Assembly: GCF_008806955.1 (NCBI RefSeq)
Contig: NZ_CP031727.1
Location: 1,054,001 to 1,118,000 of the forward strand
From: Cellvibrio sp. KY-YJ-3
Lineage (GTDB): Bacteria; Pseudomonadota; Gammaproteobacteria; Pseudomonadales; Cellvibrionaceae
Length of the DNA: 64,000 bases
Direction of reading: 5' to 3'
The notes under the pieces are model-generated. The model was given only the letters and a program-made list of their open reading frames with translations, ran no database searches and was not told the origin of the DNA. Below, piece by piece: positions 14,211-32,306 of the stretch (position 1 is the stretch's first letter; each line of letters begins with the position of its first letter). Position numbers and translations under genes: made by a program.

Positions 14211-14246
14211 GGGGGGAGCGGATTTGCCGCTCCCCCACGTCCTATT
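14211..14246 (+). promoter_or_regulatory. Candidate ECF sigma promoter 1 (upstream of the sigma gene)
   Basis: GCGGATTT (14218-14225) and CGTCCTATT (14238-14246) are 20 bases apart start to start. The same pair recurs before the first GH49 gene and before the second TonB receptor gene. The form resembles FecI-type promoters, with a GGA-rich -35 and a CGTCC -10. This copy also holds a perfect 10-bp inverted repeat (14212-14221 with 14227-14236) around ATTTG. It would allow the sigma factor to activate its own gene. Confidence 0.6.
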
Positions 14247-14397
14247 TGCAGACAGGTTGATATGTCTGCGTAAATCAACCGGTTCAGCCCTCTGCATTGC
14301 TAGCTACACTGGAGTGACGGGCTGCATAGAATAATCATGCGCAGCAGGTTCAAGGGGTGAGTTACTTTGTCCAGTTCTTATCGGGCGGGCATGGCAG

Positions 14398-14925
14398 TTG
14401 GGCAGCCATAACCACAGCCAGCAACGGCTGTTAGTGGATGTATACCGCCAGTATCGGCGGGAGCTGTGTGCTTACATAACCGGCAAGTTTGGCGTGGATG
14501 CCAGTGATGCCGAAGATATAGTGCAGTCTGCTTTTGCAAATTTTGCGGAGCTGGAGGGTGCGCCGCTGGTTGAAAATCCGCGTGCGTTTCTGTATCGCGC
14601 CTGCAGCAACATCGCCATAGATCAAAAACGCCACGGCAAGGTGCGGCAGGGTTATAGCGAGACGGTGTTGCATACCGAGGAAGAGGCGAGCGATGCCACA
14701 GGGCCGGAGCGCACAAATGAATCGCGTCAGCGATTGGGAATTCTGGCCCAGGTGATGTGGGCTATGCCCGGGCGGCGACGCCAGTTATTAATGATGAGCC
14801 GGTTTGATGGCTTGTCCTATGCGGAAATTGCCCGGCAGGTGGGCTTATCTGAAACCGTAGTCCGTAAACATATCGCCAAAGCGATAGATGATTGTCATAA
14901 AGCCCTCAAAGCATGTGGCGAATAG
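14398..14925 (+). CDS. FecI-type ECF RNA polymerase sigma factor
   Basis: The 175-residue protein has the two ECF sigma domains: region 2 (LCAYITGKFGVDASDAEDIVQ, about residues 22-42, plus RAFLYRACSNIAIDQKR) and region 4 (DGLSYAEIARQVGLSETVVRKHIAKAI, about residues 137-163). It is of the FecI group that works with FecR and a TonB transducer. The start is uncertain: TTG at 14398 gives the full domain but has a weak ribosome site, and GTG at 14434 is an alternative. fecR follows after 24 bases. A candidate promoter for the sigma factor itself lies 150 bases upstream. Confidence 0.92.
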   Translation: MGSHNHSQQRLLVDVYRQYRRELCAYITGKFGVDASDAEDIVQSAFANFAELEGAPLVENPRAFLYRACSNIAIDQKRHGKVRQGYSETVLHTEEEASDATGPERTNESRQRLGILAQVMWAMPGRRRQLLMMSRFDGLSYAEIARQVGLSETVVRKHIAKAIDDCHKALKACGE

Positions 14926-14949
14926 CATGGAACGACAAGAAGTGAACCT

Positions 14950-15972
14950 ATGAAGCCAAATAAATCACCGCAAATTGACAGCGCTATCCAGGCGCAGGCG
15001 CGCGACTGGTTGGTGTTGTTAAATTCTGGCGCCGTGAGCGAGCAGCAGCGCGAAGCGTTTGGGCGCTGGATGGCGGCATCGGAAGCTCACGAGCAGGCCT
15101 TTGCCGAATACGAACAAACCTGGCAGCAGCTGGGGCAATTGGCACCGGGTACCCGTGCAGAATTGCGCAATTCCGTAGCCGATTTACCCGCTGCAGGCTG
15201 GCGCGCGCAATGGAATCAGTGGTTGCAATGGAGTGGTCGCTCCTGGCAGGCCGCTGCGTTGGCCAGTGTATTACTGCTCGGGGTGTGGGTGGTGTTGGAT
15301 GGGCGCGAGGCAAATCCCGTTATCAGTCATTACCAAACTGCGGTGGCACAGCTGCAAACCATCACCTTGCCCGATGGCAGCCAGCTTACCTTGGCCGCCA
15401 AAACACGCATCAATGCTTGGCAAACGGAGGGTGAGCGCCATGTGGAATTGCTTGCCGGACAGGCGTTTTTTGATATCGCCAAAAATCCACAACAACCGTT
15501 TTACGTCAGTGTGGGCGGCACTCGCGTTCGGGTTGTGGGTACCCGCTTTGATGTAAATAAATTCAACGGACAAGTGCGCGTGAGTGTGGAAGAGGGCATT
15601 GTCAGTGTGAGCGCGCTGGCGCTGGATGCGGGCAGTACAGCACCGGCGGTGGTATTAACTGCGGGCAATACGGTGACCCAATTGGCAGACGGTGTTTTAT
15701 CGGCGGTTGGCACTATAGACCCTACCGCTGCCGCGCTCTGGCGCAGCGGGCGGCTGGTGTACAACAACGCCACCTTGGTCGAAGTCATTAGTGATGTGAA
15801 TCGTTATTACGATGGCGAAATTATTGTGCATGACGCGCTCAAAAACGAACGCATTACTATGGCACTGACAACGGCGGAGGTAAATCAATTGCCCGCTGTG
15901 CTCGCACAAATCCTGCCAATTCGCGTGCAGCAGGCCGCGGACAAACGTGTGTATTTATTTCCTGCACACTAA
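14950..15972 (+). CDS. FecR-type anti-sigma factor / signal transducer
   Basis: The 340-residue protein has an N-terminal cytoplasmic DUF4880 domain (ARDWLVLLNSGAVSEQQREAF), one membrane segment (about residues 97-115, AAALASVLLLGVWVVL), the periplasmic FecR domain (LPDGSQLTLAAKTRINAW through TRFDVNKFNGQVRVSVEEG) and a C-terminal STN-like segment. In the known scheme FecR holds the sigma factor until the N-terminal domain of a loaded TonB receptor touches its periplasmic part. The receptor at 24943-27990 has such a domain and is the obvious partner. The stop codon overlaps the end of the convergent gene by 4 bases. Confidence 0.93.
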   Translation: MKPNKSPQIDSAIQAQARDWLVLLNSGAVSEQQREAFGRWMAASEAHEQAFAEYEQTWQQLGQLAPGTRAELRNSVADLPAAGWRAQWNQWLQWSGRSWQAAALASVLLLGVWVVLDGREANPVISHYQTAVAQLQTITLPDGSQLTLAAKTRINAWQTEGERHVELLAGQAFFDIAKNPQQPFYVSVGGTRVRVVGTRFDVNKFNGQVRVSVEEGIVSVSALALDAGSTAPAVVLTAGNTVTQLADGVLSAVGTIDPTAAALWRSGRLVYNNATLVEVISDVNRYYDGEIIVHDALKNERITMALTTAEVNQLPAVLAQILPIRVQQAADKRVYLFPAH

Positions 15973-16904
15973 TTCGTCCTGTCATCCAGTTGTTTTTGTT
16001 TGTCGCTGTGGTCGGGATGGGGTGGGTTGCTGTCCTCACTGAAGGCTTGATACCAATCGGGATTGTTTTCTACCAATGCCCGTGCATTTACGCCATCAAT
16101 ATCCAGATAAAAAACACGCCTCGGTGCTGCCTCCAGTTGGCGCAGTGCTTCAACAATTCGTTGGTGGCTGTAAAAATAGCGATCAAATTCGCCTGTTTTC
16201 TGCAGTTGGCCTAAACCGCGCTCAATTCGTTCGGCGAGTGAGTGATTGCCGGCGCCCACATAAAAATACAAATCCGCGTGATAGACCAACAAAATATTTT
16301 TTTCTACGGCCAGTGTCGGGTCGTTAAGAATATTCAATTCGTGCCATGCCTCAACCACCCCGCGCGGGTAATAGTCAAAGCGTTCGGCTTTTAACATTTT
16401 TACCAATAGATTGGCATCCATGGCGGTGGCAACCTTCAGGCCATTGCTGCGCAAAATATGGGTGTCTGGCCAGTGCGCACCTTGTCCTGCAACCAGTTGT
16501 TGTAAATCCTCAAGGCTTTCAATTTGATCGAAATGCATTTGATCCTGTTTGCGGATAATAAAAACCCGCATGCCTAGCAGACCTTTAAACAGTGGAATGC
16601 TAATCGGCATGAGTGCTTGGTTGCGGTTTTTATCGGCCATTGACCACGCCACACTGTTGGGCAAGTTATTGAGATTGGCGAGCATGCGCGCTTGATACTG
16701 ATTGGATTCAACATGACGCAGATGAATAATTTCGTCCGCCCCTTGGCTGGCGGTTAAGGCTTTCTGCAATAGATCGGCACAGTAATTTCCCGAGAACTCG
16801 GAGCGAGTGGATAGCGCGGTAATAGTTATCACGGTCTCAGCCGATGCCAGTGGTAGCAGCAAGGCAAGACTCAAATGCAACAATAAGGCGGGTCGCGAGC
16901 GCAT
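15969..16904 (-). CDS. Periplasmic substrate-binding-like protein (type 2 PBP fold), orphan
   Basis: This 311-residue protein has a clear signal peptide (LLLPLASA, cleavage near residue 22) and resembles the family 3 solute-binding proteins. Visible segments are VFIIRKQDQMHFDQIESLEDL, the RSNGLKVATAMDANLLVKML lobe and GLGQLQKTGEFDRYF near the end. No ABC permease, ATPase, kinase or cyclase domain is attached or nearby, so transport is unlikely. Such free-standing proteins are frequent in Shewanella- and Cellvibrio-like genomes with unknown ligands. It is convergent with fecR and divergent from the GH49 operon. Its promoter would share the region that holds the candidate ECF site. Confidence 0.7.
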   Translation of the reverse strand: MRSRPALLLHLSLALLLPLASAETVITITALSTRSEFSGNYCADLLQKALTASQGADEIIHLRHVESNQYQARMLANLNNLPNSVAWSMADKNRNQALMPISIPLFKGLLGMRVFIIRKQDQMHFDQIESLEDLQQLVAGQGAHWPDTHILRSNGLKVATAMDANLLVKMLKAERFDYYPRGVVEAWHELNILNDPTLAVEKNILLVYHADLYFYVGAGNHSLAERIERGLGQLQKTGEFDRYFYSHQRIVEALRQLEAAPRRVFYLDIDGVNARALVENNPDWYQAFSEDSNPPHPDHSDKQKQLDDRTN

Positions 16905-17070
16905 AAATTATCCACAGCATAGAGGTGTTATTTTAAAAAAATCCTCTTTGGCAGAATTGAGACGAACCAAAACAAAAATCCGTTCCCACCTGTGAATTAT
17001 TTTTATCGCGATTTTTTATCGCTATGTGTTAACACTGCACCCAAGTTGATCGGATTATTTTATTGCTTAG

Positions 17071-17102
17071 GGGGGCGGATTTTATGCGTAACACGTCCTA
17101 TT
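17071..17102 (+). promoter_or_regulatory. Candidate ECF sigma promoter 2 (upstream of the first GH49 gene)
   Basis: GCGGATTT (17075-17082) and CGTCCTATT (17094-17102) are 19 bases apart start to start, matching the sequences before the sigma gene and the second receptor gene. The ATG of the GH49 gene lies 74 bases downstream. Confidence 0.6.
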
Positions 17103-17175
17103 GATGAACAACTGCATTGCTGGATTTGCAAAAAATGCAGCAGTCATTCATTTCACAATAACAATAGGTAGTGTT

Positions 17176-19728
17176 ATGAAATTTCTTGTCTCTAATAGAC
17201 AATCCAGTCTGTTTGTATTGTCCGTATCCCTTGTTGTCCTGTTTAATTTAACGGCGTGTGGCGGCGGTGGTAGCACCAACCCATCGTCAGTTGCTCCATC
17301 CAGCGTAGCTCTTAGCTCAGTTTCCAGTGTCACTAGCAGTGTTAGTTCATCGCTCGTTATTGCCTCCTCTTCTTCTGCGGCGCAAACATCCAGCGATGCC
17401 GATGTGATAGCTGCCGACCTGCATACCTGGTGGCACGACGAATATGAAATAAATGACAGCAGCGCGGTAGCGGATAACAAAGTTCGCCGCTCCGGCCTTT
17501 ACGATGTGCGTGTCGCCACTGTGGCGGCGCCCACCGCGCTAAAAAATGCCTTTGTGTATATGAGTATTCCGCGCAGTGGTCGCAGCAAGGCAGGTTACAC
17601 CCATGCCGATGGCGCTGAGTTTGCCGACATCGCTAATCTCTCCATGAGTTGGTCGTCGTTTTTATACACGGGTGATGTCTGGGTAGAGGTGGATTTAAAA
17701 GATGGCGCCAGCATTAATAATCTGGATGAAATTATTATTCGCCCCACTTCACTCAATTTTGAAAAACAATTGGTTGATAACAATACCCTGCGGATTAAAG
17801 TGCCTTACCGCGCTGAGGGTTATCGATTTTCGGTGGAATTTGAAAGCCAACAATTTACCAGTTACAACGATCGCTCTGGTGATACCGGCAACCTGAGTTT
17901 AAATGACAGCGGTTATGCCATTCATCGCGAACCCAAAAATGCGCTGCTGATTTTTGCCCAGCCCAACTACACTGCCGAGACTCGCGCGGAATTGGTACCG
18001 GAGAGCGGCAATATTCAATACCCGGCGCAGGGGCTAGTGGATGCGGCCAGTTTGAATGCCGATATAATTTATTTTAAGCCCGGTATTTATCACATGGGCG
18101 CCAACAAGCACGCATTCCTACCCAACAATACCCGCTGGATTTATCTGGCGCCGGGCGCTTACGTTAAGGGTTCATTTCAATTTCGCAATGCCCAGGAAAA
18201 TTACAAAGTCACCGGTTACGGTGTGCTATCGGGCGAGCAATATGTTTACGAAGCCGACATCAATAATAATTACCAGCACCGTTTGGACAGCAGCAATAAC
18301 TGCCATGAAACCTGCGTAAAAATGTTGCGCTTTGAATCGGCCAGTCGCCAACAGCAGTTGCGCGTGCAGGGCATTACCATTAATGAACCGCCCTACCATT
18401 CATTTGTGGTTTACGGCAATGAAGACACGTTTGCCATGAATGTCAGTGAATACCAGCAGGTGGGCAGTTGGTTCTGGCAGACCGATGGTTTGGAATTTTA
18501 TACCGGTAGCGAATTTAACAACGGATTTTTCCATGCGAATGACGACGTTTTAAAGTTTTATCATTCCAATGTAGAGGTTGATAATGTGGTGGTATGGAAA
18601 AACGAAAACGGCCCCGTTATTCAATTCGGTTGGTGGCCGCGCCACATGAGTAATATCACGGCAAAAAATATCGATGTGATTCACAACCGCATGTATTGGA
18701 AAGATCAAAAACACAATACTTGCGTGATTAACTCCGCGAACAATTGGATCGCCAGTGGCGATACCTGGGATAAAACGGCGGACCTGAGCAAATACGTGCG
18801 CAATCTGATGTTTGAAAATATTCGGGTTGAAGGCATGGTGAATTGTGCGATGCGTTTTTATCCGCTATCCAATTTTGAAGGCATTAATATTCATAACCTG
18901 GACATTGAGCGCTGGAATGAATTGCCCAATTATTCTCAGTACAGTTTGCTGCAAGCCATGGGTAATAGTGCAGGCACAAAAGTGAATATTACTCCGGGCA
19001 ACGGTATTAATATTGTGAATTACACCGTGGCCGGCCAGCCGATAATTAAAACCGCCAACAGTAGTGACAATTGGAGTAAAGATAATATTGGCCGTATCGA
19101 TTTTGATGCGACGCTGAATACTAGTTGGAGCGCGGTTGCCACGATTGATGCGGCCTGTACTGGCCAAACCATTACCACCAGCGAGTTTACCGATTTAACT
19201 ATTAATCAAACTCTGGATATTACTGCCACAAGCAGCGCGGCGCTGCCGTTGGAGTATGCGATTAGCGGCGCAGCGTCTATAGCGCCCACTGCAACCGGCG
19301 CGACCATTACCGCTGCTGCGACGGGGGGTGAAGCTATAGTGCGTATTACCCAGGCGGGCGATAGCGAATTTTGTCCCAGTAGTTTTAGCGCCGTGATTAA
19401 TGTGGTTGATCCAGCCATGGGGCCGGGCAATCGCTGGATTGGTGCCAGTTGGAAAGCCTGGAGCCCCAGCCAATTGCCGATGAGTTGGAATGCGCAAGAC
19501 AGTGTCTACGAATTGACAACCGACATTCCCGCTGGCGAACAACAATTAAAATTCACCAACACCGATAACTGGAGTGGTGACGATTGGGGTAATGCCACGG
19601 GTTTAACTGGCACTGCAAGCCTGACCACGGGTGGTGGTGACAATGTGAGTTTTACCATTACCACCGCGGGCAACTATTTAATCCGCTTTGATCCCTACAA
19701 TTTTACTTACTCCATTACGCCCCTGTGA
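17176..19728 (+). CDS. GH49 family (dextranase-like) lipoprotein with C-terminal binding module
   Basis: The 850-residue protein has a lipobox ending in LTACGGGG and a Ser/Val-rich linker. The GH49 N-terminal beta-sandwich follows (WWHDEYEIND, VYMSIPRSGRSK) and then the right-handed beta-helix. The three GH49 aspartates are present as Asp437 in FWQTDGLEFY and Asp456-Asp457 in HANDDVLKFYH, with the family's 19-residue spacing. After the helix come an Ig-like stretch (about residues 655-730) and a module of about 100 residues (QQLKFTNTDNWSGDDWGNATG) shared with the next gene. GH49 includes dextranases and isopullulanases, so an endo-acting alpha-glucanase is likely. I chose the ATG at 17176 (AGGT upstream), which puts the lipobox in place. 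The anchor suggests a cell-surface enzyme. Downstream is a terminator. Confidence 0.9.
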   Translation: MKFLVSNRQSSLFVLSVSLVVLFNLTACGGGGSTNPSSVAPSSVALSSVSSVTSSVSSSLVIASSSSAAQTSSDADVIAADLHTWWHDEYEINDSSAVADNKVRRSGLYDVRVATVAAPTALKNAFVYMSIPRSGRSKAGYTHADGAEFADIANLSMSWSSFLYTGDVWVEVDLKDGASINNLDEIIIRPTSLNFEKQLVDNNTLRIKVPYRAEGYRFSVEFESQQFTSYNDRSGDTGNLSLNDSGYAIHREPKNALLIFAQPNYTAETRAELVPESGNIQYPAQGLVDAASLNADIIYFKPGIYHMGANKHAFLPNNTRWIYLAPGAYVKGSFQFRNAQENYKVTGYGVLSGEQYVYEADINNNYQHRLDSSNNCHETCVKMLRFESASRQQQLRVQGITINEPPYHSFVVYGNEDTFAMNVSEYQQVGSWFWQTDGLEFYTGSEFNNGFFHANDDVLKFYHSNVEVDNVVVWKNENGPVIQFGWWPRHMSNITAKNIDVIHNRMYWKDQKHNTCVINSANNWIASGDTWDKTADLSKYVRNLMFENIRVEGMVNCAMRFYPLSNFEGINIHNLDIERWNELPNYSQYSLLQAMGNSAGTKVNITPGNGINIVNYTVAGQPIIKTANSSDNWSKDNIGRIDFDATLNTSWSAVATIDAACTGQTITTSEFTDLTINQTLDITATSSAALPLEYAISGAASIAPTATGATITAAATGGEAIVRITQAGDSEFCPSSFSAVINVVDPAMGPGNRWIGASWKAWSPSQLPMSWNAQDSVYELTTDIPAGEQQLKFTNTDNWSGDDWGNATGLTGTASLTTGGGDNVSFTITTAGNYLIRFDPYNFTYSITPL

Positions 19729-19737
19729 TCCGCTTTG

Positions 19738-19770
19738 CAGGCAGGTGTTTCGGCACCTGTCTGTTTTTTA
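19738..19770 (+). terminator. Intrinsic terminator after the first GH49 gene
   Basis: A 10-bp stem with one wobble pair (19738-19747 with 19754-19763) runs into seven T. It separates the two GH49 genes, so the second probably has its own promoter or depends on read-through. Confidence 0.85.
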
Positions 19771-19936
19771 TTGTGGTAAATGTTGATGTTGTTGTGTTGA
19801 TTTTCCTGATGATTTTTTCTTGTTTTTTGCTGTTAAAAAACGGGCGGGCGACTTGTTATAAGTGCAGCTTGTTAGTGTGATCAATTTATCTGTCGGCTGC
19901 CTCCTACTGAATAATATTAATAATGTGGAGTTTTCT

Positions 19937-22168
19937 ATGTGTCCAGCAAGCGCGAGTAATAAAAACAAGTTATTCAAAAAAACCATAAAAATGTTAATGG
20001 CATTTTCCGCTAGCCTGCTATTTGCATTACCCTCGTCTGCCGGTCTTACGGCAGATACTGCCGGGCTTAAAACCTGGGTGCACGGCAATAATTACGAAAT
20101 CAATGCCACCGGTCCGGTTGCCGATAACAAGGTACGCGCCTCCAGCTTTTATGAGGTGCGGGTGAGCCGTGTAGCCGACCCGGAAAATTATTTTGACTCC
20201 TTTACCTATATGTCAATCCCGCGCAGCGGCCGCGACAAATGGCTCTACAGCGATGCGGATGGTGACTACGGAGTTGACGGTGCCGAGTTTGCCGATCAAG
20301 CTGATCTCAGCATGAGTTGGTCAAGTTTTTTATTTGGCGAGGATGTATGGGTTGAAGTATCTCTGCGCAATGGTGAGACATTTTCATCGGTGAGTGATGT
20401 CACTATTCGTCCAACAATTTTAAATTTTGTCAAAGAAAAAGTGGATGCTGACACCATTCGTATCAAAGTGCCATACAGCAGTAATGGGCGACGTTTTTCG
20501 GTGGAGTTTAATCACCAACTGTATACCGCTTATAACGATAAAACCCAAGGTGACAGCGGGAAATTGACCACAGTGGCGGCGGGCAATTATGAAGTACATA
20601 CCGAGCCTAAAAATGCGTTATTGATTTTTGCCGAGCCCATTGCCCTGCCGGATTATCTACTGCCCGACCTGAGCGCGGCGCAAACTGATGGCGTGGTCTA
20701 TGAACACCCGCCGGGTGAAATTGTGAATTTAAATGAGGTGGCGGCCGATATCATTTATTTCCCACCCGGCATCTATTACATGCGCTGGGACTACCATGCA
20801 AAACTACCAGCACGGGTGAAGTGGTTACATCTGGCTCCCGGTGCTTACATAAAAGGGGCCTTTCAATTTACCGACAGTGTGCAAGAGGAATATAAAGTTA
20901 CCGGCTATGGGGTTATCTCCGGTGAAAAATATGTATATGAGGCGGATGCTGATACTGAAGTTGGTTATGTGCGTCGCCCACAACATAAGTCGAATTGCCA
21001 TGGCAGCTGCGTCAAACTGTTGCAGTTTGAAGCATCGGGTGAGCAGCAATATTTGTATATGCGTGGCGTTACCTTAAACGAGCCACCCTATCATTCGTTT
21101 GTGGTTTACCCCAAACCTGGCAATAGCGAAGAGACAGATCTTGAAGCCTTTTCCATGCGCGTCAAAAATTATAAACAAGTGGGCAGCTGGTATTGGCAAA
21201 CTGACGGTATGGAGTTGTATAGCAACAGTTATATGAAAAACAGTTTCTTTCACGCCAATGACGATGTGATCAAACTCTATCACTCCAATTTGGATATAGA
21301 TAACACAGTGATTTGGAAAGGTGAAAATGGCCCGGTTATTCAGTGGGGTTGGAAGCCGCGCAGTTTTGAAAATGTGTCGGTCACCGATACCTATGTGATT
21401 CACAACCGCATGGGCTGGAATGACAAAAAATACAATACCTGTGTATTTAATGCCTCGCGCCATTGGGCAAGTGATTCCATGGAGTTGGGTGACACTACTA
21501 AAACCATTAAAAATATCAGCTTCAATAATTTTATCGTGGAGGGTAAAACGAATTGTGGTATTCGTATTTACGCTATGGCCAATACCGAAAATATTCATTT
21601 TAACAATGTGAGTATTGATGGCTGGAATGAGCTGGATGCCACTGGCACAGTCAGTGAATTTTTTCCGATGACCAATAGCGCCAACACTCCAGTGTCGATT
21701 GGCAATGAGTTAATTGATAGCCGCGGGATAAAATTGGAGAATTTTAAAGTGGCGGGTGAATATATTTCCCGTGCCGCCAATAACTGGGAATCGCACCAGC
21801 TGGGTAAGCTTAATGTTGACCCCGTCCTGTGGAATCACTGGAACGCCTGGGTAAGTGCGGATATGTCCAGCAGTTACAGCAATATCTGGTTGGCCGGTGA
21901 TTTTACCAATTGGTCGCTAGTGCCCATGAATTTTCAACAGGGTAATTTTAATATCACTCTGCCCTTATCTGCCGGCAGCCATCAATTAAAATTTGCCAAT
22001 AGCAATAATTGGTCGGCGATTGATTGGGGTAATACGAGCGGGTTGCAAGGCCAGGCGACACAGAGCACCGGCGGTTTAGCCAATCTGAGTTTTACGATTA
22101 ACCATGCGGGTGACTATACCATTCGTTTTAATCCCGACACTGGCAATTATTATATTTATAAACTCTAG
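19937..22168 (+). CDS. GH49 family (dextranase-like) secreted enzyme
   Basis: The 743-residue paralogue of the preceding protein has a Sec signal peptide (LLFALPSSA) instead of a lipobox, so it should be periplasmic or secreted. The GH49 beta-sandwich (FTYMSIPRSGRDKW) and beta-helix are complete. The catalytic set is Asp423 in YWQTDGMELY and Asp442-Asp443 in HANDDVIKLYH, again 19 residues apart. The C-terminal module (residues about 645-743, HQLKFANSNNWSAIDWGNTSG) matches the one in the upstream paralogue, but the Ig-like stretch is missing. The ATG at 19937 has TGTGGAG upstream. Dextranase or a related activity is likely. The two copies probably differ in place of action: surface against periplasm. 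Confidence 0.9.
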   Translation: MCPASASNKNKLFKKTIKMLMAFSASLLFALPSSAGLTADTAGLKTWVHGNNYEINATGPVADNKVRASSFYEVRVSRVADPENYFDSFTYMSIPRSGRDKWLYSDADGDYGVDGAEFADQADLSMSWSSFLFGEDVWVEVSLRNGETFSSVSDVTIRPTILNFVKEKVDADTIRIKVPYSSNGRRFSVEFNHQLYTAYNDKTQGDSGKLTTVAAGNYEVHTEPKNALLIFAEPIALPDYLLPDLSAAQTDGVVYEHPPGEIVNLNEVAADIIYFPPGIYYMRWDYHAKLPARVKWLHLAPGAYIKGAFQFTDSVQEEYKVTGYGVISGEKYVYEADADTEVGYVRRPQHKSNCHGSCVKLLQFEASGEQQYLYMRGVTLNEPPYHSFVVYPKPGNSEETDLEAFSMRVKNYKQVGSWYWQTDGMELYSNSYMKNSFFHANDDVIKLYHSNLDIDNTVIWKGENGPVIQWGWKPRSFENVSVTDTYVIHNRMGWNDKKYNTCVFNASRHWASDSMELGDTTKTIKNISFNNFIVEGKTNCGIRIYAMANTENIHFNNVSIDGWNELDATGTVSEFFPMTNSANTPVSIGNELIDSRGIKLENFKVAGEYISRAANNWESHQLGKLNVDPVLWNHWNAWVSADMSSSYSNIWLAGDFTNWSLVPMNFQQGNFNITLPLSAGSHQLKFANSNNWSAIDWGNTSGLQGQATQSTGGLANLSFTINHAGDYTIRFNPDTGNYYIYKL

Positions 22169-22180
22169 CCGGAAATAATT

Positions 22181-22206
22181 ACCAGTGTCCGCGCGCGGGC
22201 ACTGGT
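22181..22206. other. 26-bp near-perfect palindrome between glycosidase genes
   Basis: Arms of 13 bases around a CGCG centre pair with one G-U wobble. There is no T run after it, so it is not a usual terminator. It may be an RNA-stabilising hairpin that sets different levels for the flanking genes, or a protein site. Confidence 0.5.
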
Positions 22207-22249
22207 ACAAGGCAATGGTAAATTAAAATACAAAAACAAAGAGGTTGTT

Positions 22250-24829: not shown

Positions 24830-24879
24830 TCATCAGCTCGGGGAATGTCAATTTCTCTGGCTATACTCTGTAAATCAGG

Positions 24880-24906
24880 CACCGCCCTTTCCCCGGGCGG
24901 TGTTTG
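24880..24906 (+). terminator. Weak terminator-like hairpin before the STN receptor gene
   Basis: A perfect 8-bp GC stem (24880-24887 with 24895-24902) is followed by only TTTGTG. It may attenuate transcription between the glycosidase and receptor genes. Confidence 0.45.
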
Positions 24907-24942
24907 TGCTGATGTGATTGAACAAGAGCCGAGGCATGCATA

Positions 24943-27900
24943 ATGGTTTGTTGGCGCGATAAAAACCGGGCGCGGCGGTTATTAACGGCAATTTTTTGCA
25001 GTGCATTAGGCTGCAGCGCGTCGCCATTTTTAGTTGCACAAATTGCACAAACCACTCATGCGGTTGATGATAATGCTACGGCTAATTCGCTAGCGACAAC
25101 CATTCATTTTTTATTGCCAGCGCAATCACTGGGTGATGCGCTGTTGCAATTTTCCCAACAATCCGGCATTGCAATTTACAGCTCCGCGCCTTTATTGCGC
25201 GATTTACACGCGCCTGCTATTGCCGGGCAATTGACTGTGTCACAGGCATTAAGCCAACTCCTGCGCGACAGCGGTTTGGATTTTGTATTGCTAGGCAATA
25301 ATGCGGTGATGATTGTGACAAAATCCGCTGTCCCTGCCCGACCCGACAACCCGCCACTGGGCAGTGCTCCCGTCATTGAAGAAGTGCGGGTGTCCGGCAT
25401 GCGCTGGAGTTTGCAACATGCATTACAAAAAAAACGCCACAGCAACTTTGTTAACGATGTTATCGCTTCCGAAAGCCTGGGAAAATTTCCAGACAATAAT
25501 GTGGTGGAATCGCTCCAGCGGATGACCGGTGTTGCCATTACCCGCGCCCGCGCCGGTGACGGGCAATTTATTACCGTGCGTGGCATGGGCCAACAATTTA
25601 ATCGCGTTACTTTAAATGGTATAGAACTGGCTACCGATAATATTGGCCGCGAATTCAGTTTTGATGTTTTCCCCGCGGAATTAATTGCTGAAGCCCAGGT
25701 TATTAAATCGCCCATGGCCAGCCAGCATGAAGGTGCAATAGGGGCAACGATTGATATGCGCACCCCGCGCCCGCTGGATGGCAGTGACACACTGGCCACC
25801 TTGGCATTGGGCAGCGGCTATGACGAATTATCCAGAGACTGGGGCGAAAAAATATCCGCTGCTTATAGCAATAGTTTTATGGAGGAGCGCCTGGGCCTAA
25901 TGCTGGGCTTCTCCCATTCCCGACGCAACTGGCGTTCCGATATGGCGCAATCCCTGGGATTTGGTTTTGATGAATTTGATATAAATCAGGATGGCTCTAT
26001 CAATGAACGTACGGAAACTGGATTCCAGCGTCCGGGATTCCTCGCCTATCCGGTCAAATGGGGCGAGCGTCGCCGCACAGGTATTATTGGCACAATTGAG
26101 TATCGGCCAGCGGAGAATTTTTCATCCAGTTTCGATTTTTTTGTGGGAGACTTTAAAACACCGGAGCAGGCCAGTTACCAAACCAATAATTTTTATTATC
26201 CGTTCCGCCCCGGCTCGGTCACGGTTGATCACAATAAAACTGTTACCCACTTTGTCATTGATGATTATTTTGTAGAGGTTGCCGCTGACCCAAAAAATCG
26301 TCGTGTACAAACTGAATTGTTTCGCTGGCAAGGCGAGTGGCGCACGCGCGACGATTTAACACTCAGCACCACACTTGGTTACTCATCGGCCAACCGGCCA
26401 GAAGGTGGAGATACCCAATTTTGGGTGGCAGGTGTTCCCGGTGCCCGGATTGAATACTGGGCGCGCACGCCGGTACCCGAAGTCAAAATTACACTCAGCG
26501 ATGGGCGCGATATTTCACAATTACGTGGCGATGAATTACAAGTCGGTTTTATGGAGACTAAGGGTGATGACATTACCGACGATTCATATTCACTGGAGCT
26601 GGATGCAAATTATTTAATTCAGGGTGAGCTGTTAACCTCAATCGATACGGGCATCGATTTACAACAGCGAATTAAAGATCGCCGCTCCTACAGCACCAAA
26701 AATCGATGTGCTTATTGCGAACACCCATTTAGTTTTGGCGATCTGGGTCTTAACCCGACCGATAACTTTATTATTCCTGATTTTCTAGCAACACAATCGG
26801 GCAGTATTCCGCGACACTGGCCAATATTAAATGTGGATAAAGTATTCAGTGCGTTGCAAGCCGCAGAGGGCCGCCTGATCAACCCAGGTGAAGGGCAAAT
26901 ATACGAACAAGGCTATAGCGATAATGTGCGGGCTTTTTTCAATCCAACAGGATCGAGTTTGATAGAAGAAAATGTTCGAGCATTATTTGTCCAATTTAAT
27001 TTCAATCAAGAACCTTCTGATGCTCACTTGGGCTGGCGCGCTAATCTGGGGATGCGTTTGATAAATACAGATACCATCGCCAGCGGTGCTGTGAATGAGG
27101 TGATTCAAAAACAGTTAATTGAGAATAGTAATAACTATGAATTGATCCGCAGCGACATCATTTTACCCCTAGAGGTAAGAACATCGAGCCAGGCGCTATT
27201 ACCCTCCGCCAATTTAGCCATTGAACTGACAGCTGATTCGGTTCTTCGTTTTGCCTTGGCGCGCACCTTGGCGCGCCCCTCGTTGGCACAGCTGGGCATG
27301 GAAACCACTTATGAAGTCAACGATGGCGAGCAGCGTCTGAGTCGCTTGGGCAACCCCTATTTAAAGCCGGTTATGGCTACCCAGTTTGATATCTCCAGCG
27401 AATGGTATATATCGCCACAAAGTGCAGTGACCTTTTCAATATTTGCCAAAGACATTGAGGGGTTTGTTGCTAATCGGGTTACCACAGAAAAAATTTTAGG
27501 CGAAGATTTTCAGGTAACCCAACCCATTAATAATGACCGGGCAATTGTTGTGGGCAGTGAATTTTCACTGCAAAAGCACTGGCAAAACGGTATGGGAATC
27601 CAACTCAATCAAACCTTTACCCATAGTGATGTCGCACAAGGGAACAGCTCATTGGTCGCGGATTATGGTTTGGAGAATCTATCCAAGTATTCCTACAACC
27701 TGGTTGCGCTCTATGAAAAATACGGTCTATCACTACGCCTTGCATTAAATCATCGCGCTGATTATTTACAGGCGACTACAGGCCAGGCGAGTCGCCCGGA
27801 AATAGTGGATGATTACCGGCAAGTGGACTTCAGTGCGAGTTATCAGCTCACGGATACTATGGCCATTTATTGTGAGGGCATTAACCTGCTGGCGGAGCCG

Positions 27901-27990
27901 CGGTTTGTCTATTCCGAATTTACTAATCGTCTGATCGAATACGAGGAGACCGGGCGTCGTTATTATTTGGGTGTACGTTTTTCGATTTAA
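24943..27990 (+). CDS. TonB-dependent transducer receptor with STN domain
   Basis: The 1015-residue outer-membrane protein has an N-terminal export signal and then an STN domain at about residues 52-122 (FLLPAQSLGDALLQFSQQSGIAIYSS to AVMIVTK). A TonB box-like segment (IEEVRVSG), the plug (SLGKFPDNNVVESLQRMTGVAITR) and a large beta-barrel ending in Phe-Ser-Ile follow. The STN domain is the part that signals to FecR in transducers such as FecA. With the FecI/FecR pair 9 kb upstream, it makes this the likely sensor of the locus. The sequence around the plug is of the type found in carbohydrate receptors. The ATG has GAGG 8 bases upstream. I see no copy of the candidate ECF promoter directly before it, so it may be read from the GH49 or glycosidase promoter. 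Confidence 0.93.
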   Translation: MVCWRDKNRARRLLTAIFCSALGCSASPFLVAQIAQTTHAVDDNATANSLATTIHFLLPAQSLGDALLQFSQQSGIAIYSSAPLLRDLHAPAIAGQLTVSQALSQLLRDSGLDFVLLGNNAVMIVTKSAVPARPDNPPLGSAPVIEEVRVSGMRWSLQHALQKKRHSNFVNDVIASESLGKFPDNNVVESLQRMTGVAITRARAGDGQFITVRGMGQQFNRVTLNGIELATDNIGREFSFDVFPAELIAEAQVIKSPMASQHEGAIGATIDMRTPRPLDGSDTLATLALGSGYDELSRDWGEKISAAYSNSFMEERLGLMLGFSHSRRNWRSDMAQSLGFGFDEFDINQDGSINERTETGFQRPGFLAYPVKWGERRRTGIIGTIEYRPAENFSSSFDFFVGDFKTPEQASYQTNNFYYPFRPGSVTVDHNKTVTHFVIDDYFVEVAADPKNRRVQTELFRWQGEWRTRDDLTLSTTLGYSSANRPEGGDTQFWVAGVPGARIEYWARTPVPEVKITLSDGRDISQLRGDELQVGFMETKGDDITDDSYSLELDANYLIQGELLTSIDTGIDLQQRIKDRRSYSTKNRCAYCEHPFSFGDLGLNPTDNFIIPDFLATQSGSIPRHWPILNVDKVFSALQAAEGRLINPGEGQIYEQGYSDNVRAFFNPTGSSLIEENVRALFVQFNFNQEPSDAHLGWRANLGMRLINTDTIASGAVNEVIQKQLIENSNNYELIRSDIILPLEVRTSSQALLPSANLAIELTADSVLRFALARTLARPSLAQLGMETTYEVNDGEQRLSRLGNPYLKPVMATQFDISSEWYISPQSAVTFSIFAKDIEGFVANRVTTEKILGEDFQVTQPINNDRAIVVGSEFSLQKHWQNGMGIQLNQTFTHSDVAQGNSSLVADYGLENLSKYSYNLVALYEKYGLSLRLALNHRADYLQATTGQASRPEIVDDYRQVDFSASYQLTDTMAIYCEGINLLAEPRFVYSEFTNRLIEYEETGRRYYLGVRFSI

Positions 27991-28110
27991 TGTTGTTACT
28001 TCCTGATTTTTCTTTTCTGCTAATTAACCTCTCCATTATTACCCTTGCCTGCACGTGCGGATAAAAAAATAAATAGCGCAGCGCTTTCCTAAATTTCAAT
28101 AATTTTTTCC

Positions 28111-28149
28111 GCGAGAGGGAGCGGATTTCCGGGTGTTTGCCGTCCTATT
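28111..28149 (+). promoter_or_regulatory. Candidate ECF sigma promoter 3 (upstream of the second receptor gene)
   Basis: GCGGATTT (28121-28128) and CGTCCTATT (28141-28149) are 20 bases apart start to start, as before the sigma gene. The start codon of the receptor gene is 100 bases downstream. Confidence 0.6.
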
Positions 28150-28248
28150 GGTACAGCCAGTCTGCCGGGAGCAGGTGTGGCTTTTGTGCGGCGCTTGCTG
28201 CTGTCCATAAAACAAAATGCATAACAAATAACGAGGTTAGATAAGCCA

Positions 28249-31071
28249 ATGGCCCATAACAAGGTATTACCCCCACGCCCCTATTTTTCAATGACACTGC
28301 TCAGTGCCGCGATTGTCGCTGCGATGAGTTCATCTGTTTATGCACAGAGCAACAATAATCCAATAAGCAACAGTCAAGTAAACAACAGCCAAGTAAACAA
28401 CAGCCAGATAGATGAACTGGAAGATGTGGTGGTTTACGGCATCCGCAATAGTTTAAAAACCTCGGCCGATTTTAAAAAGAATTCTGCGGTAGTGGTGGAT
28501 TCAATTACCGCTGAAGATATAGGTAAATTTCCCGATGCGAATGTCGCTGACTCATTGCAGCGTGTTACCGGTATTCAAATTTCGCGGGATCGCGGTGGTG
28601 AGGGACGTTTTGTATCGGTGCGCGGTTTGGGCAGCCAATTTAATATGACCTTGTTAAACGGCAGAACCTTGGCAACGGATAACTCCGGGCGCGATTTTAG
28701 TTTTGACGTAATGCCCTCGGAGGCAATTTCCGGTGCAGATATTTATAAAGCCTCCATGGCATCGCTACAGGAAGGCAGTATCGGCGGTTTGATCAGTTTA
28801 AAAACGCTTAAACCGCTGGATAATCCAGGCTTGCACATCAAAGCATCCGCGGGCCAACTTTATGATGATGGTACGGAAAAATTCAGCGGCCAATATTCCG
28901 GCATTGTGTCCAACAGTTTTATGGACGATACACTCGGCGCCAGTTTTGGTTTGACCTATTCCAAGCGCCACTGGAAAGCCGATACCTATGAGTCCTTTAC
29001 CGAGCGTGCGATTAGTACGGCGGATGTAGATGTTGACGGCGATGGCAACAATGACGCGGTTAATGCTTGGGCGCCGGACATTATCACCATGCAACATAAA
29101 TTTGGTGAGCGCGAACGTATTGGTGCAGTGGGTGCACTGCAATTTAAACCCGATGAGCGCATCGATACCACGCTCGATTTTTTCTATTCCAATTACAAAA
29201 CTCCCGAGCGCTCTTATTCCTACAACATCAACTTTGGCACCGCGAGTGATTTCAGCTACAGCGCTTTACAACCCTGGAGCACCCCGGCGGAAGATGATGG
29301 TGTGCCGATTGATTATATCGCCACCGGTTTTAGTGCAGGCAAAGCCAACCTTGAAATTGGCAATGATACCCAGGAGCGCGAAACCGATACCTACATGATC
29401 GGTTGGAACACAATTTTCCAGGCGACCGATGCGCTGGAATTAACCATGGACCTGGCTTACTCCAAAGCTGAGCGTCCGAACAAAGGCGACAATATGTATA
29501 CCGTCGCGGGCATAAATGAAGTTGCCTACGAGTGGCAAACCACCGCCAAAGGTGTGCCTATGCTCGATTGTATGACTCCCGATGGCCGCGCCTGTTGGGA
29601 TATTAACAACGAGGATATTGCTGTTCACTTTATGGAATTAAAAGGTGAGCAGGTAATTGATGAAGCAGTGTCGTTTCGTTTTGACGGCGATTACGATTTT
29701 AATTTTATGGCGTTGGATTCCAAACTCGAATTTGGTGTGACCTATTCCACGCGCGAAAAAGATAAAGCCATTTATAAAACCGCCAATGGCTGCTCCTATT
29801 GCAGCAGTTTTGATCGCCGTGTGAGCCAGGTGGGCATAACGGCCGTGTTGCCTGACGCAGTGAATTACGATGCCGGTTTTGATACGGGTATCAGTTACTG
29901 GCCCGCATTAGACCCCTACGCATTATTTGCGGCGTTGCGTTCATTTGATCGCATTGAAGGTCAAGAGGGGCGTTTTGAAACACAAATTGCACCGCAGTTG
30001 CGCGAGCGTGAATCCACTGTTATTGAAGAGCAGGTTGCGGGTGGTTATTTGCAGGCGAATGTGAGTGGTGACCAGTGGAATGCCATTGCCGGTGTGCGCT
30101 GGGTACAAACTGATACTACGTCCAATGGACATATCCAGGATTTAAAAGAGCTGCAAAAAATTCCTGGCAGCTCCAACTATCAAGGTGTGTATGGCGATTC
30201 GATTGCGGTCAGTGAAGAAAATACTTACGACAACTTTTTGCCATCAATCAATATTAATTACGATCTGCAAGATAATTTAAAACTGCGCGCCTCTGCTTCG
30301 CAAACCATTACCCGCCCTACTATTTCGCAGCTCGGCCCGGATTTAAATTGGGAAATTAACAGCGGCACACCGCGTGTCAGTTTTGGCGGTAACCCCGCGT
30401 TGGAGCCCATCAAGTCAAATAATTATGACCTCTCACTGGAGTGGTACGGTGAAAACGGCAGCTCGGCTTCGGTCGCCGGTTATTACAAAGATATCAGCAA
30501 TTTTATTTTCTGGGCGGGTGAAACCCTGGTGTACAACATTACCGTAACCGAAGAAGGTGCGCCGCCAATTACGGAGGACGTCGAGTTTGGTTCAGGCCGC
30601 CCATACAACGGCGACACCGCCACGCTCACGGGTGTGGAACTCGCCCTGCAACAATTATTTGATAACGGTTTTGGTGTGCAATTTAACTATACCTGGGCGG
30701 ATTCAACCTCTAATACCACGGTCGGCGATGTGACCATTAAAGGCGAGTTGGACGGTGTATCTACCAATACCTACAACCTGATGGGTTTTTATGAAACGGA
30801 TTCCTACAGCGCACGCCTGAGTTATTCCTATCGCGATGCTTATGTTGCCGGTGCACGCAGTGGCAAGTGGGGCAATCCATTGTTGAACAATGATTATGCA
30901 TCGCTGGATTTAAGTCTGTCCTATGACATTAACGACAATGTTGAAATTTATCTGGAAGCGCAAAACTTGCTGGAGGAATACAACCATCGTTATTACGGCG
31001 ACTTTGCCGCAACTAAATACTACGAGCAGTACTCGCGCCGTTTTGAATTGGGTGCGCGTTTTAGTTTTTAA
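28249..31071 (+). CDS. TonB-dependent receptor (carbohydrate type)
   Basis: The 940-residue protein has a signal peptide (cleavage near VYAQS), a Asn/Ser-rich stretch with repeated NNSQVNNSQ units, a TonB box-like ELEDVVVYGI, the plug (EDIGKFPDANVADSLQRVTGIQISRDRGGEGRF is the family hallmark, given here only to locate it at about residues 88-120) and a barrel ending in GARFSF. It lacks an STN domain and so is a pure importer. It shares the plug pattern with the STN receptor upstream. The SusE-like lipoprotein gene follows after 28 bases, which recalls the SusC-SusD/E order of Bacteroidetes. Its promoter region holds the candidate ECF site. The likely cargo is an alpha-glucan fragment, inferred from the neighbours. 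Confidence 0.93.
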   Translation: MAHNKVLPPRPYFSMTLLSAAIVAAMSSSVYAQSNNNPISNSQVNNSQVNNSQIDELEDVVVYGIRNSLKTSADFKKNSAVVVDSITAEDIGKFPDANVADSLQRVTGIQISRDRGGEGRFVSVRGLGSQFNMTLLNGRTLATDNSGRDFSFDVMPSEAISGADIYKASMASLQEGSIGGLISLKTLKPLDNPGLHIKASAGQLYDDGTEKFSGQYSGIVSNSFMDDTLGASFGLTYSKRHWKADTYESFTERAISTADVDVDGDGNNDAVNAWAPDIITMQHKFGERERIGAVGALQFKPDERIDTTLDFFYSNYKTPERSYSYNINFGTASDFSYSALQPWSTPAEDDGVPIDYIATGFSAGKANLEIGNDTQERETDTYMIGWNTIFQATDALELTMDLAYSKAERPNKGDNMYTVAGINEVAYEWQTTAKGVPMLDCMTPDGRACWDINNEDIAVHFMELKGEQVIDEAVSFRFDGDYDFNFMALDSKLEFGVTYSTREKDKAIYKTANGCSYCSSFDRRVSQVGITAVLPDAVNYDAGFDTGISYWPALDPYALFAALRSFDRIEGQEGRFETQIAPQLRERESTVIEEQVAGGYLQANVSGDQWNAIAGVRWVQTDTTSNGHIQDLKELQKIPGSSNYQGVYGDSIAVSEENTYDNFLPSININYDLQDNLKLRASASQTITRPTISQLGPDLNWEINSGTPRVSFGGNPALEPIKSNNYDLSLEWYGENGSSASVAGYYKDISNFIFWAGETLVYNITVTEEGAPPITEDVEFGSGRPYNGDTATLTGVELALQQLFDNGFGVQFNYTWADSTSNTTVGDVTIKGELDGVSTNTYNLMGFYETDSYSARLSYSYRDAYVAGARSGKWGNPLLNNDYASLDLSLSYDINDNVEIYLEAQNLLEEYNHRYYGDFAATKYYEQYSRRFELGARFSF

Positions 31072-31099
31072 ACGCGACGTCTACACCCGAGGCTTAACA

Positions 31100-32245
31100 A
31101 TGAATACTACTAATAATTGGAACCCTATAGTCATGAAAAAAATGATGCGCAAAAACTTGAGTGCAAAAAAATCCTGGTGGCTGGCGCTGCTTGCAGCCAG
31201 CAGTCTGATGTCGCTGGTTAGCTGTGGTGGCGACTCGGGGCTTGGTTATAAAGAAACTGACCCGGTGGATCGCGCCCCGTATTTTTCGGTTGCGGGCAGT
31301 GCAGTAGAAAATGGCTCCAGTCTGGATGCGTCAAAATTAAAACCGATGAATATTGAGTTTTTTGACGATAAATCCTTGAAGTCCTATTACGTGAGTGTGG
31401 ATAACGCGGTAGTGGCAGAAGGTGAGTTGAGTGGCGATCATGCCGTGGTAGAAGTGCCACTGGATGATTTTGCCGGCGGCCAAACCTATTCAGCCAAAGT
31501 GGTTGCTACCGATAGCGCAGGCGGTTCCACTATTGCGCATTTTACCTTGAACGTAAAAGCCTATTATGAACAGCTCTCTCTGGTTGGCAGTGCAACCCCC
31601 GGTGGTTGGGATACCAGCATGGCCAGCGCTATGACAGTAGATGAAAACAATCCGGCGGTTTTTAGCTGGTCAGGCCCATTAACCGCGGGTGAATTTAAAA
31701 TTTCTACCCAGCAAATGGTCACCTGGGATGCCGGTTACGATTGGCTTCATCCACTGAGTCAGGGACAATCATTAACCAGTATGGATTACGAAATTGTTGT
31801 TTCCGGCGGCATGGATAACAAGTGGGTGATTCCCGAAGGGGAAGCGGGCGACTATCGCATCACTATCAACCAAAAAGATAAAACCATTTTTATCGGCAAA
31901 CCGCTGGCCGCTATTTATATTGTTGGCAGCGCCACACCGATTGGTTGGAATTTGGGTAATGCCATCGCCTTTGAGCGCGATGCCAGCGATCCGGCAGTAT
32001 TTAGCCTGACAGTGGTTTTGGCGGCGGGTGAGTTTAAATTTGCCTCGCAAACTGCATCCTGGGAAATGGGCGATTGGTTGTATGCACCAGGGGCAAATGC
32101 ATCGCTGCCAACCGCAAGTGGCACCTTTGATTTGCGTGTTGCCGGAGCACCAGATAATAAATGGATGGTATCGGCGGCAGAGGCTGGCACGTATCAGTTT
32201 ACTATTGACCTGGATGCAGGTTCGATTGTTGCGGTTAAACAATAA
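31100..32245 (+). CDS. SusE/SusF-like outer-membrane glycan-binding lipoprotein
   Basis: The 381-residue protein has a lipobox (SLMSLVSCGG), an N-terminal Ig-like domain (about residues 45-150) and two tandem modules of about 115 residues. Each begins LVGSATPGGW or IVGSATPIGW and contains AGEFKIS or AGEFKFAS and DNKW; they resemble the starch-binding domains of SusE and SusF. The protein should sit on the cell surface and hold glycan for the adjacent receptor. I chose the ATG at 31100 because GAGG lies 7 bases upstream; a longer reading overlaps the receptor gene in another frame. It is the last gene of the unit and is followed by a strong terminator. Finding such a protein outside Bacteroidetes is notable. 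Confidence 0.82.
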   Translation: MNTTNNWNPIVMKKMMRKNLSAKKSWWLALLAASSLMSLVSCGGDSGLGYKETDPVDRAPYFSVAGSAVENGSSLDASKLKPMNIEFFDDKSLKSYYVSVDNAVVAEGELSGDHAVVEVPLDDFAGGQTYSAKVVATDSAGGSTIAHFTLNVKAYYEQLSLVGSATPGGWDTSMASAMTVDENNPAVFSWSGPLTAGEFKISTQQMVTWDAGYDWLHPLSQGQSLTSMDYEIVVSGGMDNKWVIPEGEAGDYRITINQKDKTIFIGKPLAAIYIVGSATPIGWNLGNAIAFERDASDPAVFSLTVVLAAGEFKFASQTASWEMGDWLYAPGANASLPTASGTFDLRVAGAPDNKWMVSAAEAGTYQFTIDLDAGSIVAVKQ

Positions 32246-32278
32246 ACTGCACGTCTTCTGAAAAAAACACATCAATAA

Positions 32279-32306
32279 AAAAAGAGGCCGCAGTGGCCTC
32301 TTTTTT
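32279..32306. terminator. Bidirectional terminator
   Basis: A perfect GAGGCC stem with an A tract on the left and a T tract on the right serves both the SusE-like gene (+) and yceI (-). Confidence 0.9.

Follow-up and report, generated by a model that had tools for sequence, protein, structure and literature searches.

This work describes a gene block in a 64,000-nucleotide stretch of the genome of Cellvibrio sp. KY-YJ-3 (contig NZ_CP031727.1, positions 1,054,001 to 1,118,000; referred to here as the window, with coordinates counted from its first letter) that we consider likely to be a utilization locus for dextran-type alpha-glucan under its own FecI/FecR/STN surface signaling with positive feedback. 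The 18-kb block comprises nine genes with a coding span of 14398 to 32245, as delimited by open frames and curated family matches. These encode an extracytoplasmic function (ECF) sigma factor (FecI), its regulator FecR, a periplasmic-binding-protein-like (PBP-like) protein, two enzymes of glycoside hydrolase (GH) family 49 (GH49a and GH49b), a six-hairpin glycosidase-like lipoprotein, a TonB receptor with an STN signaling domain, a second TonB receptor (TBDT2), and a SusE/F-like lipoprotein. The block probably detects dextran at the outer surface, cuts it, imports the pieces, and switches itself on by way of a kind of sensor chiefly familiar from iron acquisition. The observation is real and coherent; the kinds of system that it varies are themselves known. 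A preliminary description of this DNA had named all of these genes except the PBP-like one, a divergent minus-strand gene at 15969 to 16904 (311 amino acids) that it left out; the genes that it named all hold as open frames with family matches.

In the mechanism that we propose, GH49a (as a surface lipoprotein) and GH49b (as a secreted enzyme) would cut alpha-1,6-glucan outside the cell, with the SusE/F-like lipoprotein holding the glucan. Oligosaccharides would be imported by TBDT2, perhaps also by the STN receptor, and trimmed by the six-hairpin lipoprotein. A glucan piece on the STN receptor would signal to FecR and then FecI, following the Fec paradigm as outlined in PMC9249621 and PMC11658791, in which FecR relays to FecI the state of an STN receptor that has bound its ligand. 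FecI would transcribe from the promoters of fecI-fecR, of GH49a and its downstream genes, of TBDT2-SusE, and probably of the PBP-like gene. Because the fecI promoter is of the same kind as those of the targets, autoactivation is likely.

The signaling genes are those expected of a Fec-type system. The fecI gene (14398 to 14925, plus strand; Sigma70_r4_2 at E 5.9e-13) adjoins fecR (14950 to 15972, plus strand; DUF4880, FecR at E 4.5e-21, and FecR_C, all above cutoff), and the linked transducer gene (24943 to 27990, plus strand) encodes STN, Plug, and barrel domains, with the STN match at E 4e-8 (33.4 bits versus a cutoff of 28.4). TBDT2, the predicted transporter (28249 to 31071, plus strand), has no STN match. 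For each of the two receptors, the best fit is TIGR01782 (570 and 647 bits versus a cutoff of 310), a receptor family that we take to be mainly carbohydrate-linked. The SusE/F-like protein, a predicted surface glycan-binding lipoprotein (31100 to 32245, plus strand; lipobox LVSC), matches SusF_SusE at E 1.4e-20. A fold search with its structure model, built from two sequences (predicted local distance difference test score [pLDDT], 71.6; predicted template modeling score [pTM], 0.53), ranked SusF 4fe9 first (E 3.8e-9; query template modeling score [TMq], 0.41) and SusE 4fch 12th (E 1.6e-4).

GH49 homology supports the dextran-type alpha-glucan target that the preliminary description had proposed, pointing to an alpha-1,6-glucan. 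GH49a (17176 to 19728, plus strand; LTAC lipobox by eye) matches GH49N at E 1.7e-72 and GH49 at E 2.9e-26, and GH49b (19937 to 22168, plus strand; signal for secretion by eye) matches them at E 2.6e-71 and E 2.6e-32, all over the curated cutoffs; PF03718 has exactly two matches genome-wide, both in the locus. The starts given here for GH49a and GH49b, and that of the SusE-like gene, are the likely ones, placed by eye later than the longest frames, which open at 17101 and 19862 for the two GH49 genes. The WQTDG and HANDD motifs, which presumably mark the site of the three catalytic aspartates of GH49, are kept in all five aligned GH49s, drawn from the window and from two relatives in the same family (genome G014, of the same genus, and genome G061, of another). 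In a PDB sequence search, GH49b scored 709 bits (E 3.6e-212) against dextranase 6nzs, which we take to be the enzyme of Arthrobacter oxydans KQ11, versus 271 bits against dextranase 1ogm and 267 against isopullulanase. The window enzymes resemble 6nzs in the GH49 core and the catalytic-aspartate motif region; they differ in adding C-terminal starch-binding-like domains (SusE/CBM-like in GH49a, where the SusF_SusE match is below cutoff, and AMPK1_CBM-like in GH49b) and in that GH49a reads as a lipoprotein.

The exact substrate may nevertheless differ, since GH49 also holds isopullulanases and exo-enzymes besides dextranases (PMC10316084, in its account of the family; also PDB names). It is unlikely, in our estimation, that the substrate is pullulan, starch, or a mixed alpha-glucan cut by isopullulanase-like GH49s. 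Such a substrate would fit the Pfam solenoid repeats, among which the isopullulanase repeat was matched next to the dextranase repeat; the starch- or glycogen-type character of the SusE/F, CBM20-like, and AMPK1_CBM-like domains; a GH97 gene in a related locus of an Alteromonadaceae metagenome-assembled genome (MAG); and one six-hairpin homologue that lies among GH13 and GH31-like genes in a genome lacking GH49. Against this stand the 709-bit score of GH49b to a dextranase versus 267 to isopullulanase and the TreC-like character of the GH13s in the G014 and Alteromonadaceae loci. The TreC-like GH13 group also includes oligo-1,6-glucosidases.

Evidence for control by FecI, also proposed in the preliminary description, comes from a locus-specific promoter. 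Reading from gene starts, we found a shared signal, GGGRGYGGAWT-N12/13-CGTCYTAWT, upstream of fecI, GH49a, and TBDT2. As a strict pattern fitted to these three window sites, it has three matches in the 4,489,528 bases of the 4.49-Mb genome, all in the locus, and the reversed pattern has none; an earlier register (GGGGNNGGAWT...) gave one match. All three sites are on the plus strand, at 14214 to 14246 before fecI (GGGAGCGGATT-N13-CGTCCTATT), 17071 to 17102 before GH49a, and 28117 to 28149 before TBDT2, and they score 30.7, 30.0, and 30.7, respectively, with a position weight matrix built from eight sites (these three, four from G061, and one from G014). Scanning the window with this matrix at a score of 14 gave a sole extra site, a weaker one that precedes the PBP-like gene on the minus strand (16956 to 16987; GGGAACGGATT-N12-CGTCTCAAT; score 20.8) and was not used for the matrix. 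At scores of at least 16, the matrix found no sites in 1,174,261 bases of other GH49 loci, most of them actinobacterial, or in 226,810 bases from 13 family loci without the FecI clade defined below. None of the other four FecI loci of the same genome has a site before fecI (P values of 0.09, 0.335, 0.14, and 0.865).

The signal also tracks a clade of FecI proteins across the family. A looser pattern gave 14 matches in 8 of 144 family genomes, and its reversed form gave 1 match in all of them. All eight genomes fall among the 36 that carry a FecI of at least 43% identity, a cutoff picked after the list was seen; for the five outside the fit, the chance that all would bear a clade FecI is 5.5e-4. 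Eleven of the 14 matches lie within 14 kb of a clade fecI. Loci could be obtained for 30 of 37 clade fecI places, 28 of which had not been used for the matrix, and 22 of these 28 carry a site 5' of fecI at P values of 0.005 or below (200 mononucleotide shuffles); many of the loci are close kin from one genus, so these counts are not independent. In 12 further clade loci, whose fecI sites overlap with those of the 28-locus test, a site scoring at least 16 precedes fecI in 8 (L157 to L162, L165, and L168) and the gene after fecR in 8 (L157 to L164; in L158, the site lies inside the longest frame of that gene), with both positions occupied in 6. Another clade locus, L109, has a site before the receptor that follows fecR.

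We also considered whether the promoter-like sites are conserved, wholly or partly, as the binding site of another regulator, which appears improbable. The window fecI site is a perfect inverted repeat too (GGGGGAGCGG...CCGCTCCCCC), and 12 of 28 sites repeat four or more left-block bases in inverted form in the spacer versus a mean of 6.0 for shuffled spacers (4 of 2,000 shuffles reach 12); at 5 or more bases, the count is 3 sites versus 1.6 expected (402 of 2,000 shuffles). Given this excess over shuffled spacers, some sites, chiefly those of sister loci, may be overlaid by a dyad. Sixteen of the 28 sites lack the dyad, and within the window it occurs only at the fecI site, being absent from the GH49a, TBDT2, and PBP-like sites. 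All of the sites share a pair of blocks separated by 12 or 13 bases; the second block is CGTC-rich, as are the -10 boxes of ECF promoters. The sites also follow the FecI clade across the family. The partial inverted repeats, of the type GGGAGC...GCTCCC, are clearest at the window fecI site and in L158; an overlapping operator is possible.

Sister loci place the block among probable sugar-linked systems. In these loci the same promoter signal precedes fecI as well as the gene that follows fecR, and one group of them adjoins N-acetylglucosamine (GlcNAc) genes. The locus is therefore one member of a FecI/FecR/STN clade that probably senses sugars and activates itself. Neighbors in L157 match NagK (over cutoff), NagP, and NagX (both below cutoff), and L158 and L159 share its gene order; neighbors in L166 resemble gal genes by eye. 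An STN match at E 0.01 was found in seven of eight sister receptors tested, three of them over cutoff, with none in the L166 receptor. In L157, L158, and L160, a gene of its own, running divergently from fecI, encodes the STN receptor, whereas the promoter belongs to a different receptor gene; judged by gene order, L159, L161, and L162 have the same layout. The window likewise has one STN and one non-STN receptor. L157 to L162 and L168 have the same promoter and a receptor together with genes that read by eye as tryptophan-halogenase-like and SapC-like.

Most STN transducers that accompany FecI/FecR act in iron signaling according to the accounts in PMC1790865, PMC9249621, and PMC11658791. Profile matches point the same way: among NCBIfam models, FecR scores highest against ferric citrate FecR, although well under cutoff (93 of 385 bits), and FecI matches the ferric citrate models too, also below cutoff (67 of 185 and 66 of 260 bits), behind PRK12527 (104 of 162) and TIGR02985 (96 of 126). 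That the system is instead a sensor of iron or of a siderophore, like that of Escherichia coli, and merely adjoins the glucan genes is very unlikely given that the strict promoter occurs genome-wide only before fecI, GH49a, and TBDT2, that both receptors fit the presumably carbohydrate-linked TIGR01782 best, and that sister loci lie beside NagK/NagP/NagX-type and gal-like genes.

Several observations weigh against a dextran locus governed throughout by its own FecI. Three genes (GH49b, the six-hairpin gene, and that of the STN receptor) lack a FecI site of their own scoring 14 or above in the matrix scan, and they stand behind a strong intrinsic terminator-like hairpin that separates GH49a from GH49b (19737 to 19770, plus strand; fold z-score of -5.1); their place in the regulon is for these two reasons the weakest link. 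The hairpin suggests weaker transcription of these three genes, or transcription from a different promoter. Scans for sigma70-type promoters and terminators were at chance level overall (25 versus 26.3 and 27 versus 24.1, respectively), so among terminators only this hairpin was used, on the basis of its fold z-score. A clear fecI site is absent in 6 of the 28 clade loci: L141, L142, and L145 have weaker ones (P values of 0.015 to 0.035), and L139, L153, and L156 fail (0.055 to 0.805). Of the 14 looser-pattern matches, 3 are off the contig of the clade fecI (one in G100 and two identical ones in G113). L166 and L167 have no site scoring at least 16 at all, sites of 16 to 18 also occur inside unrelated genes (one each in L161 and L168), and one unexplained site in G014 (12567; score 16.3) lies inside a receptor gene. 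The STN domains of the G014 and G061 receptors, at 21.0 and 27.3 bits, are below the Pfam cutoff of 28.4, and the G061 FecI does not group firmly with that of the window in the FecI tree. Finally, family searches of 10 locus and 10 flanking proteins gave no inner-membrane transporter in the locus and no SusD match, and no small-sugar glucosidase of known family was found in the locus. The earlier view of a complete sense-cut-import system is therefore not supported.

Comparison with known systems clarifies what is and is not new. The locus resembles fecIR-fecABCDE of E. coli in having FecI, FecR (DUF4880/FecR/FecR_C), an STN outer-membrane receptor, and a target operon at hand; it differs in carrying glucan enzymes instead of iron transport genes and in pairing an STN with a non-STN receptor in one locus. 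The fecIR genes of E. coli are Fur-controlled and are stated in PMC9249621 not to be autoregulated, which would make positive feedback a difference from E. coli. Like the locus, the proteobacterial system PrhA-PrhR-PrhI of Ralstonia, as summarized in PMC1790865, joins homologues of FecI and FecR to a TonB receptor of the transducer type; it reports a non-iron signal, plant-cell contact, so non-iron use of Fec machinery is not new. Prh controls hrp genes, apparently has no need of transport, and is described in that summary without glycan-cutting or import genes.

Among glycan systems, FjDexUL of Flavobacterium johnsoniae (PMC10316084, in its description of the locus) is similar in TonB-linked import, a SusE/F homologue, a dextranase, and an alpha-glucan target. 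It is built from SusR, SusC/SusD, GH66, GH31, GH97, and GH65, whereas the locus studied here has FecI/FecR, two GH49s, and no SusD; measured against Sus-type polysaccharide utilization loci (PULs) of Bacteroidetes, it thus has the SusE/F-like lipoprotein and lacks the SusC/SusD pair. ECF sigma/anti-sigma pairs are presented in the same article's treatment of regulators as one of three PUL regulator types and as Bacteroidota-specific. Carbohydrate uptake through TonB receptors is established in Proteobacteria, as reported in PMC1790865 with the carbohydrate utilization containing TonB-dependent transporter (CUT) loci of Xanthomonas campestris, which share with the present locus a TonB receptor, a degrading enzyme, and a regulator. 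The sux locus described there also has an inner-membrane transporter and its own suxR, and the present locus has no inner-membrane sugar transporter in it and so differs from a CUT locus on this point; the Xanthomonas FecI/FecR pair of that article, unlike that of the window, goes with a Fur-regulated receptor.

Similar in gene content, outside the family, is the Alteromonadaceae MAG locus (G144:C7; L057/L187), which has a TBDT2 homologue (48%), a SusE/F-like gene, two GH49s, and a six-hairpin gene, in the order TBDT2 homologue, SusE/F-like, GH97, GH49, GH13, GH49, six-hairpin. Beside its receptor is a LacI-type gene, and no FecR match was found on its 211-kb contig (eight FecR genes lie elsewhere in that genome), which indicates that a similar cutting and import set can stand beside different regulators.

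This block is a candidate for the genes behind dextran use in Cellvibrio; the organism of the discovery of dextranase is named as Cellvibrio fulva in the historical remarks of PMC9458216. If our reading is true, FecI/FecR surface signaling in a gammaproteobacterium would report a sugar, not iron, and the promoter code would predict regulon members from sequence. In open-license PMC literature we found no printed FecI/FecR sugar locus from Gammaproteobacteria and no Cellvibrio GH49 locus, which is weak evidence of absence; a 2024 review (PMC11658791) counts TonB receptors in transcription regulation and non-siderophore transport as a promising field in the part devoted to them.

The preliminary description had also called for a search for GH49 next to FecI/FecR in other Gammaproteobacteria. 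GH49 occurs in 5 of the 144 family genomes and stands beside FecI and FecR in 3 of them (the window, G014, and G061). In a set of 64 named GH49 loci with flanks up to 10 kb, FecR was found in only one, L031, which is one of the three family loci already counted; six others have distant sigma-like matches only. These loci were found through the peptides W[YF]WQTDG and FFHANDD, so the scan misses divergent GH49s, and it may omit the genome of the window itself. The combination of GH49 with FecI/FecR is rare, and control of this kind in the family extends beyond GH49: a clade FecI occurs in 36 of the 144 genomes and GH49 in only 5. GH49, six-hairpin, STN receptor, fecI, and fecR genes occur together in G014 and G061, much of the set in similar order, and such recurrence is more than chance. 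G014 has a GH13 gene between the GH49 and six-hairpin genes, with one receptor seen; the best relative of this GH13 in the Cellvibrio sp. KY-YJ-3 genome is unlinked to the locus. In G061, a single GH49 is accompanied by two receptors, of which one bears STN, and by a SusE/F-like gene. Two further genomes of the same genus, G022 and G030, have GH49 without the rest of the set in the stretches read. The G022 GH49 (L013/L014) consists of two overlapping frames with no FecI/FecR nearby and is possibly broken.

The six-hairpin lipoprotein (22250 to 24829, plus strand) is, as judged from family searches and a structure model, an (alpha/alpha)6 enzyme that could not be assigned to a GH family. It matches several (alpha/alpha)6 families weakly (best E 5.3e-8), with MGH1-like (33.3 bits versus a cutoff of 27), Bac_rhamnosid6H (31 versus 24.5), and GDE_C (23.8 versus 21) over cutoff; among the family models, GH94 is below cutoff (23.9 versus 27) and GH15 gives no match. 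Since Bac_rhamnosid6H is a rhamnosidase-type domain, there may be a distant tie to GH78. A fold search with the structure model (pLDDT, 75.9; pTM, 0.83; six sequences) placed GH94 1v7v at the top (E 4.6e-15; TMq, 0.37), with rhamnosidase 8iwf at a TMq of 0.36; glucodextranase 1ug9 came 29th (E 2.6e-8; TMq, 0.30). All three are at about 9 to 16% identity. Placement in a GH family thus failed by Pfam, PDB sequence, and fold searches, and membership in GH15 (as a glucodextranase), GH94, or GH78 was not supported by a match to the family model over cutoff or by a high fold score. Homologues occur in 6 of the 144 family genomes, in 3 cases within a GH49 locus, and in 5 of the 64 named GH49 loci at E 1e-6: L031, L033 (Massilia), L057 (Alteromonadaceae), and L058 and L072 (both Rarobacter faecitabidus). 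The locus therewith points to an enzyme with no assigned family that is linked to GH49, and we regard this enzyme and the regulatory code as the parts worth bench work.

A broader scenario is offered tentatively, as a possibility somewhat less probable than its negation. The clade would have left iron sensing and become a portable sugar switch that has a fixed promoter code of its own, works by positive feedback, and keeps the STN sensor apart from the transporter; swaps of transducer and target genes would have adapted it to dextran, GlcNAc, and other sugars. On the dextran module it would have replaced a LacI-type regulator, and the six-hairpin protein found near GH49 in Cellvibrio, the Alteromonadaceae MAG, Massilia, and the actinobacterium Rarobacter would represent a new GH family that finishes isomaltooligosaccharides.

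The PBP-like gene, so called by eye, matched nothing in Pfam or NCBIfam at E 0.001. It belongs to a large family of exported proteins that look PBP-like by eye: of 21 candidates in the Cellvibrio sp. KY-YJ-3 genome, 15 were scored, giving at least 15 copies, and 77 of the 144 family genomes have relatives, which rules out a locus-specific gene. The closest relative found for the gene of the locus (58%) is in the G014 GH49 locus, and three other PBP-like copies (L110 to L112) have no comparable promoter site within 400 bases upstream. Because paralogues are numerous, the tie of this gene to the locus consists only of its promoter and the G014 relative.

A second terminator-like hairpin, read by eye and absent from the terminator scan list, marks the locus end (32281 to 32306, plus strand). 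Neighbors not counted in the locus are, on the 5' side, a GH43 gene, a gene with a LacI-like binding domain, a carboxylesterase gene, and an Exop_C protein gene and, on the 3' side, yceI, a cytochrome b561 gene, a 719-amino-acid frame without a match, and a TRAP transporter gene. The last of these, DctM (36606 to 37979), is the nearest transporter gene seen, about 4.4 kb 3' of the locus. The Exop_C protein, 5' of fecI (13532 to 14167), is a stand-alone domain of 211 amino acids; Exop_C is usually the C-terminal part of GH3 enzymes.

Scanning G014 and G061 with the matrix at a score of 12 gave sites before fecI and GH49, with two each before GH49. In addition, G014 has one site after fecR and one scoring 21.8 before a large frame, and G061 has one near a receptor start (20.5) and one before the SusE/F-like gene. 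Other sites are unexplained: 664 (13.7) and 28918 (18.9) in G014 and 9716 (14.9) and 22291 (13.0) in G061. The large frame in G014 (L008, 1 to 7802, minus strand) encodes at least 2,600 amino acids, being truncated where the stretch ends, and lies next to the GH49 locus. The paired FecI-type sites before GH49, an arrangement not seen in the window, are in tandem in both G014 (L009, joined coordinates -24753 to -24491) and G061 (L010, 11374 to 11519), with a terminator-like hairpin between them. Transcription from the first site of each pair could yield a short RNA, some 100 to 200 bases long, and a CTCTCC..TTGG-like stretch precedes the hairpin in both genomes.

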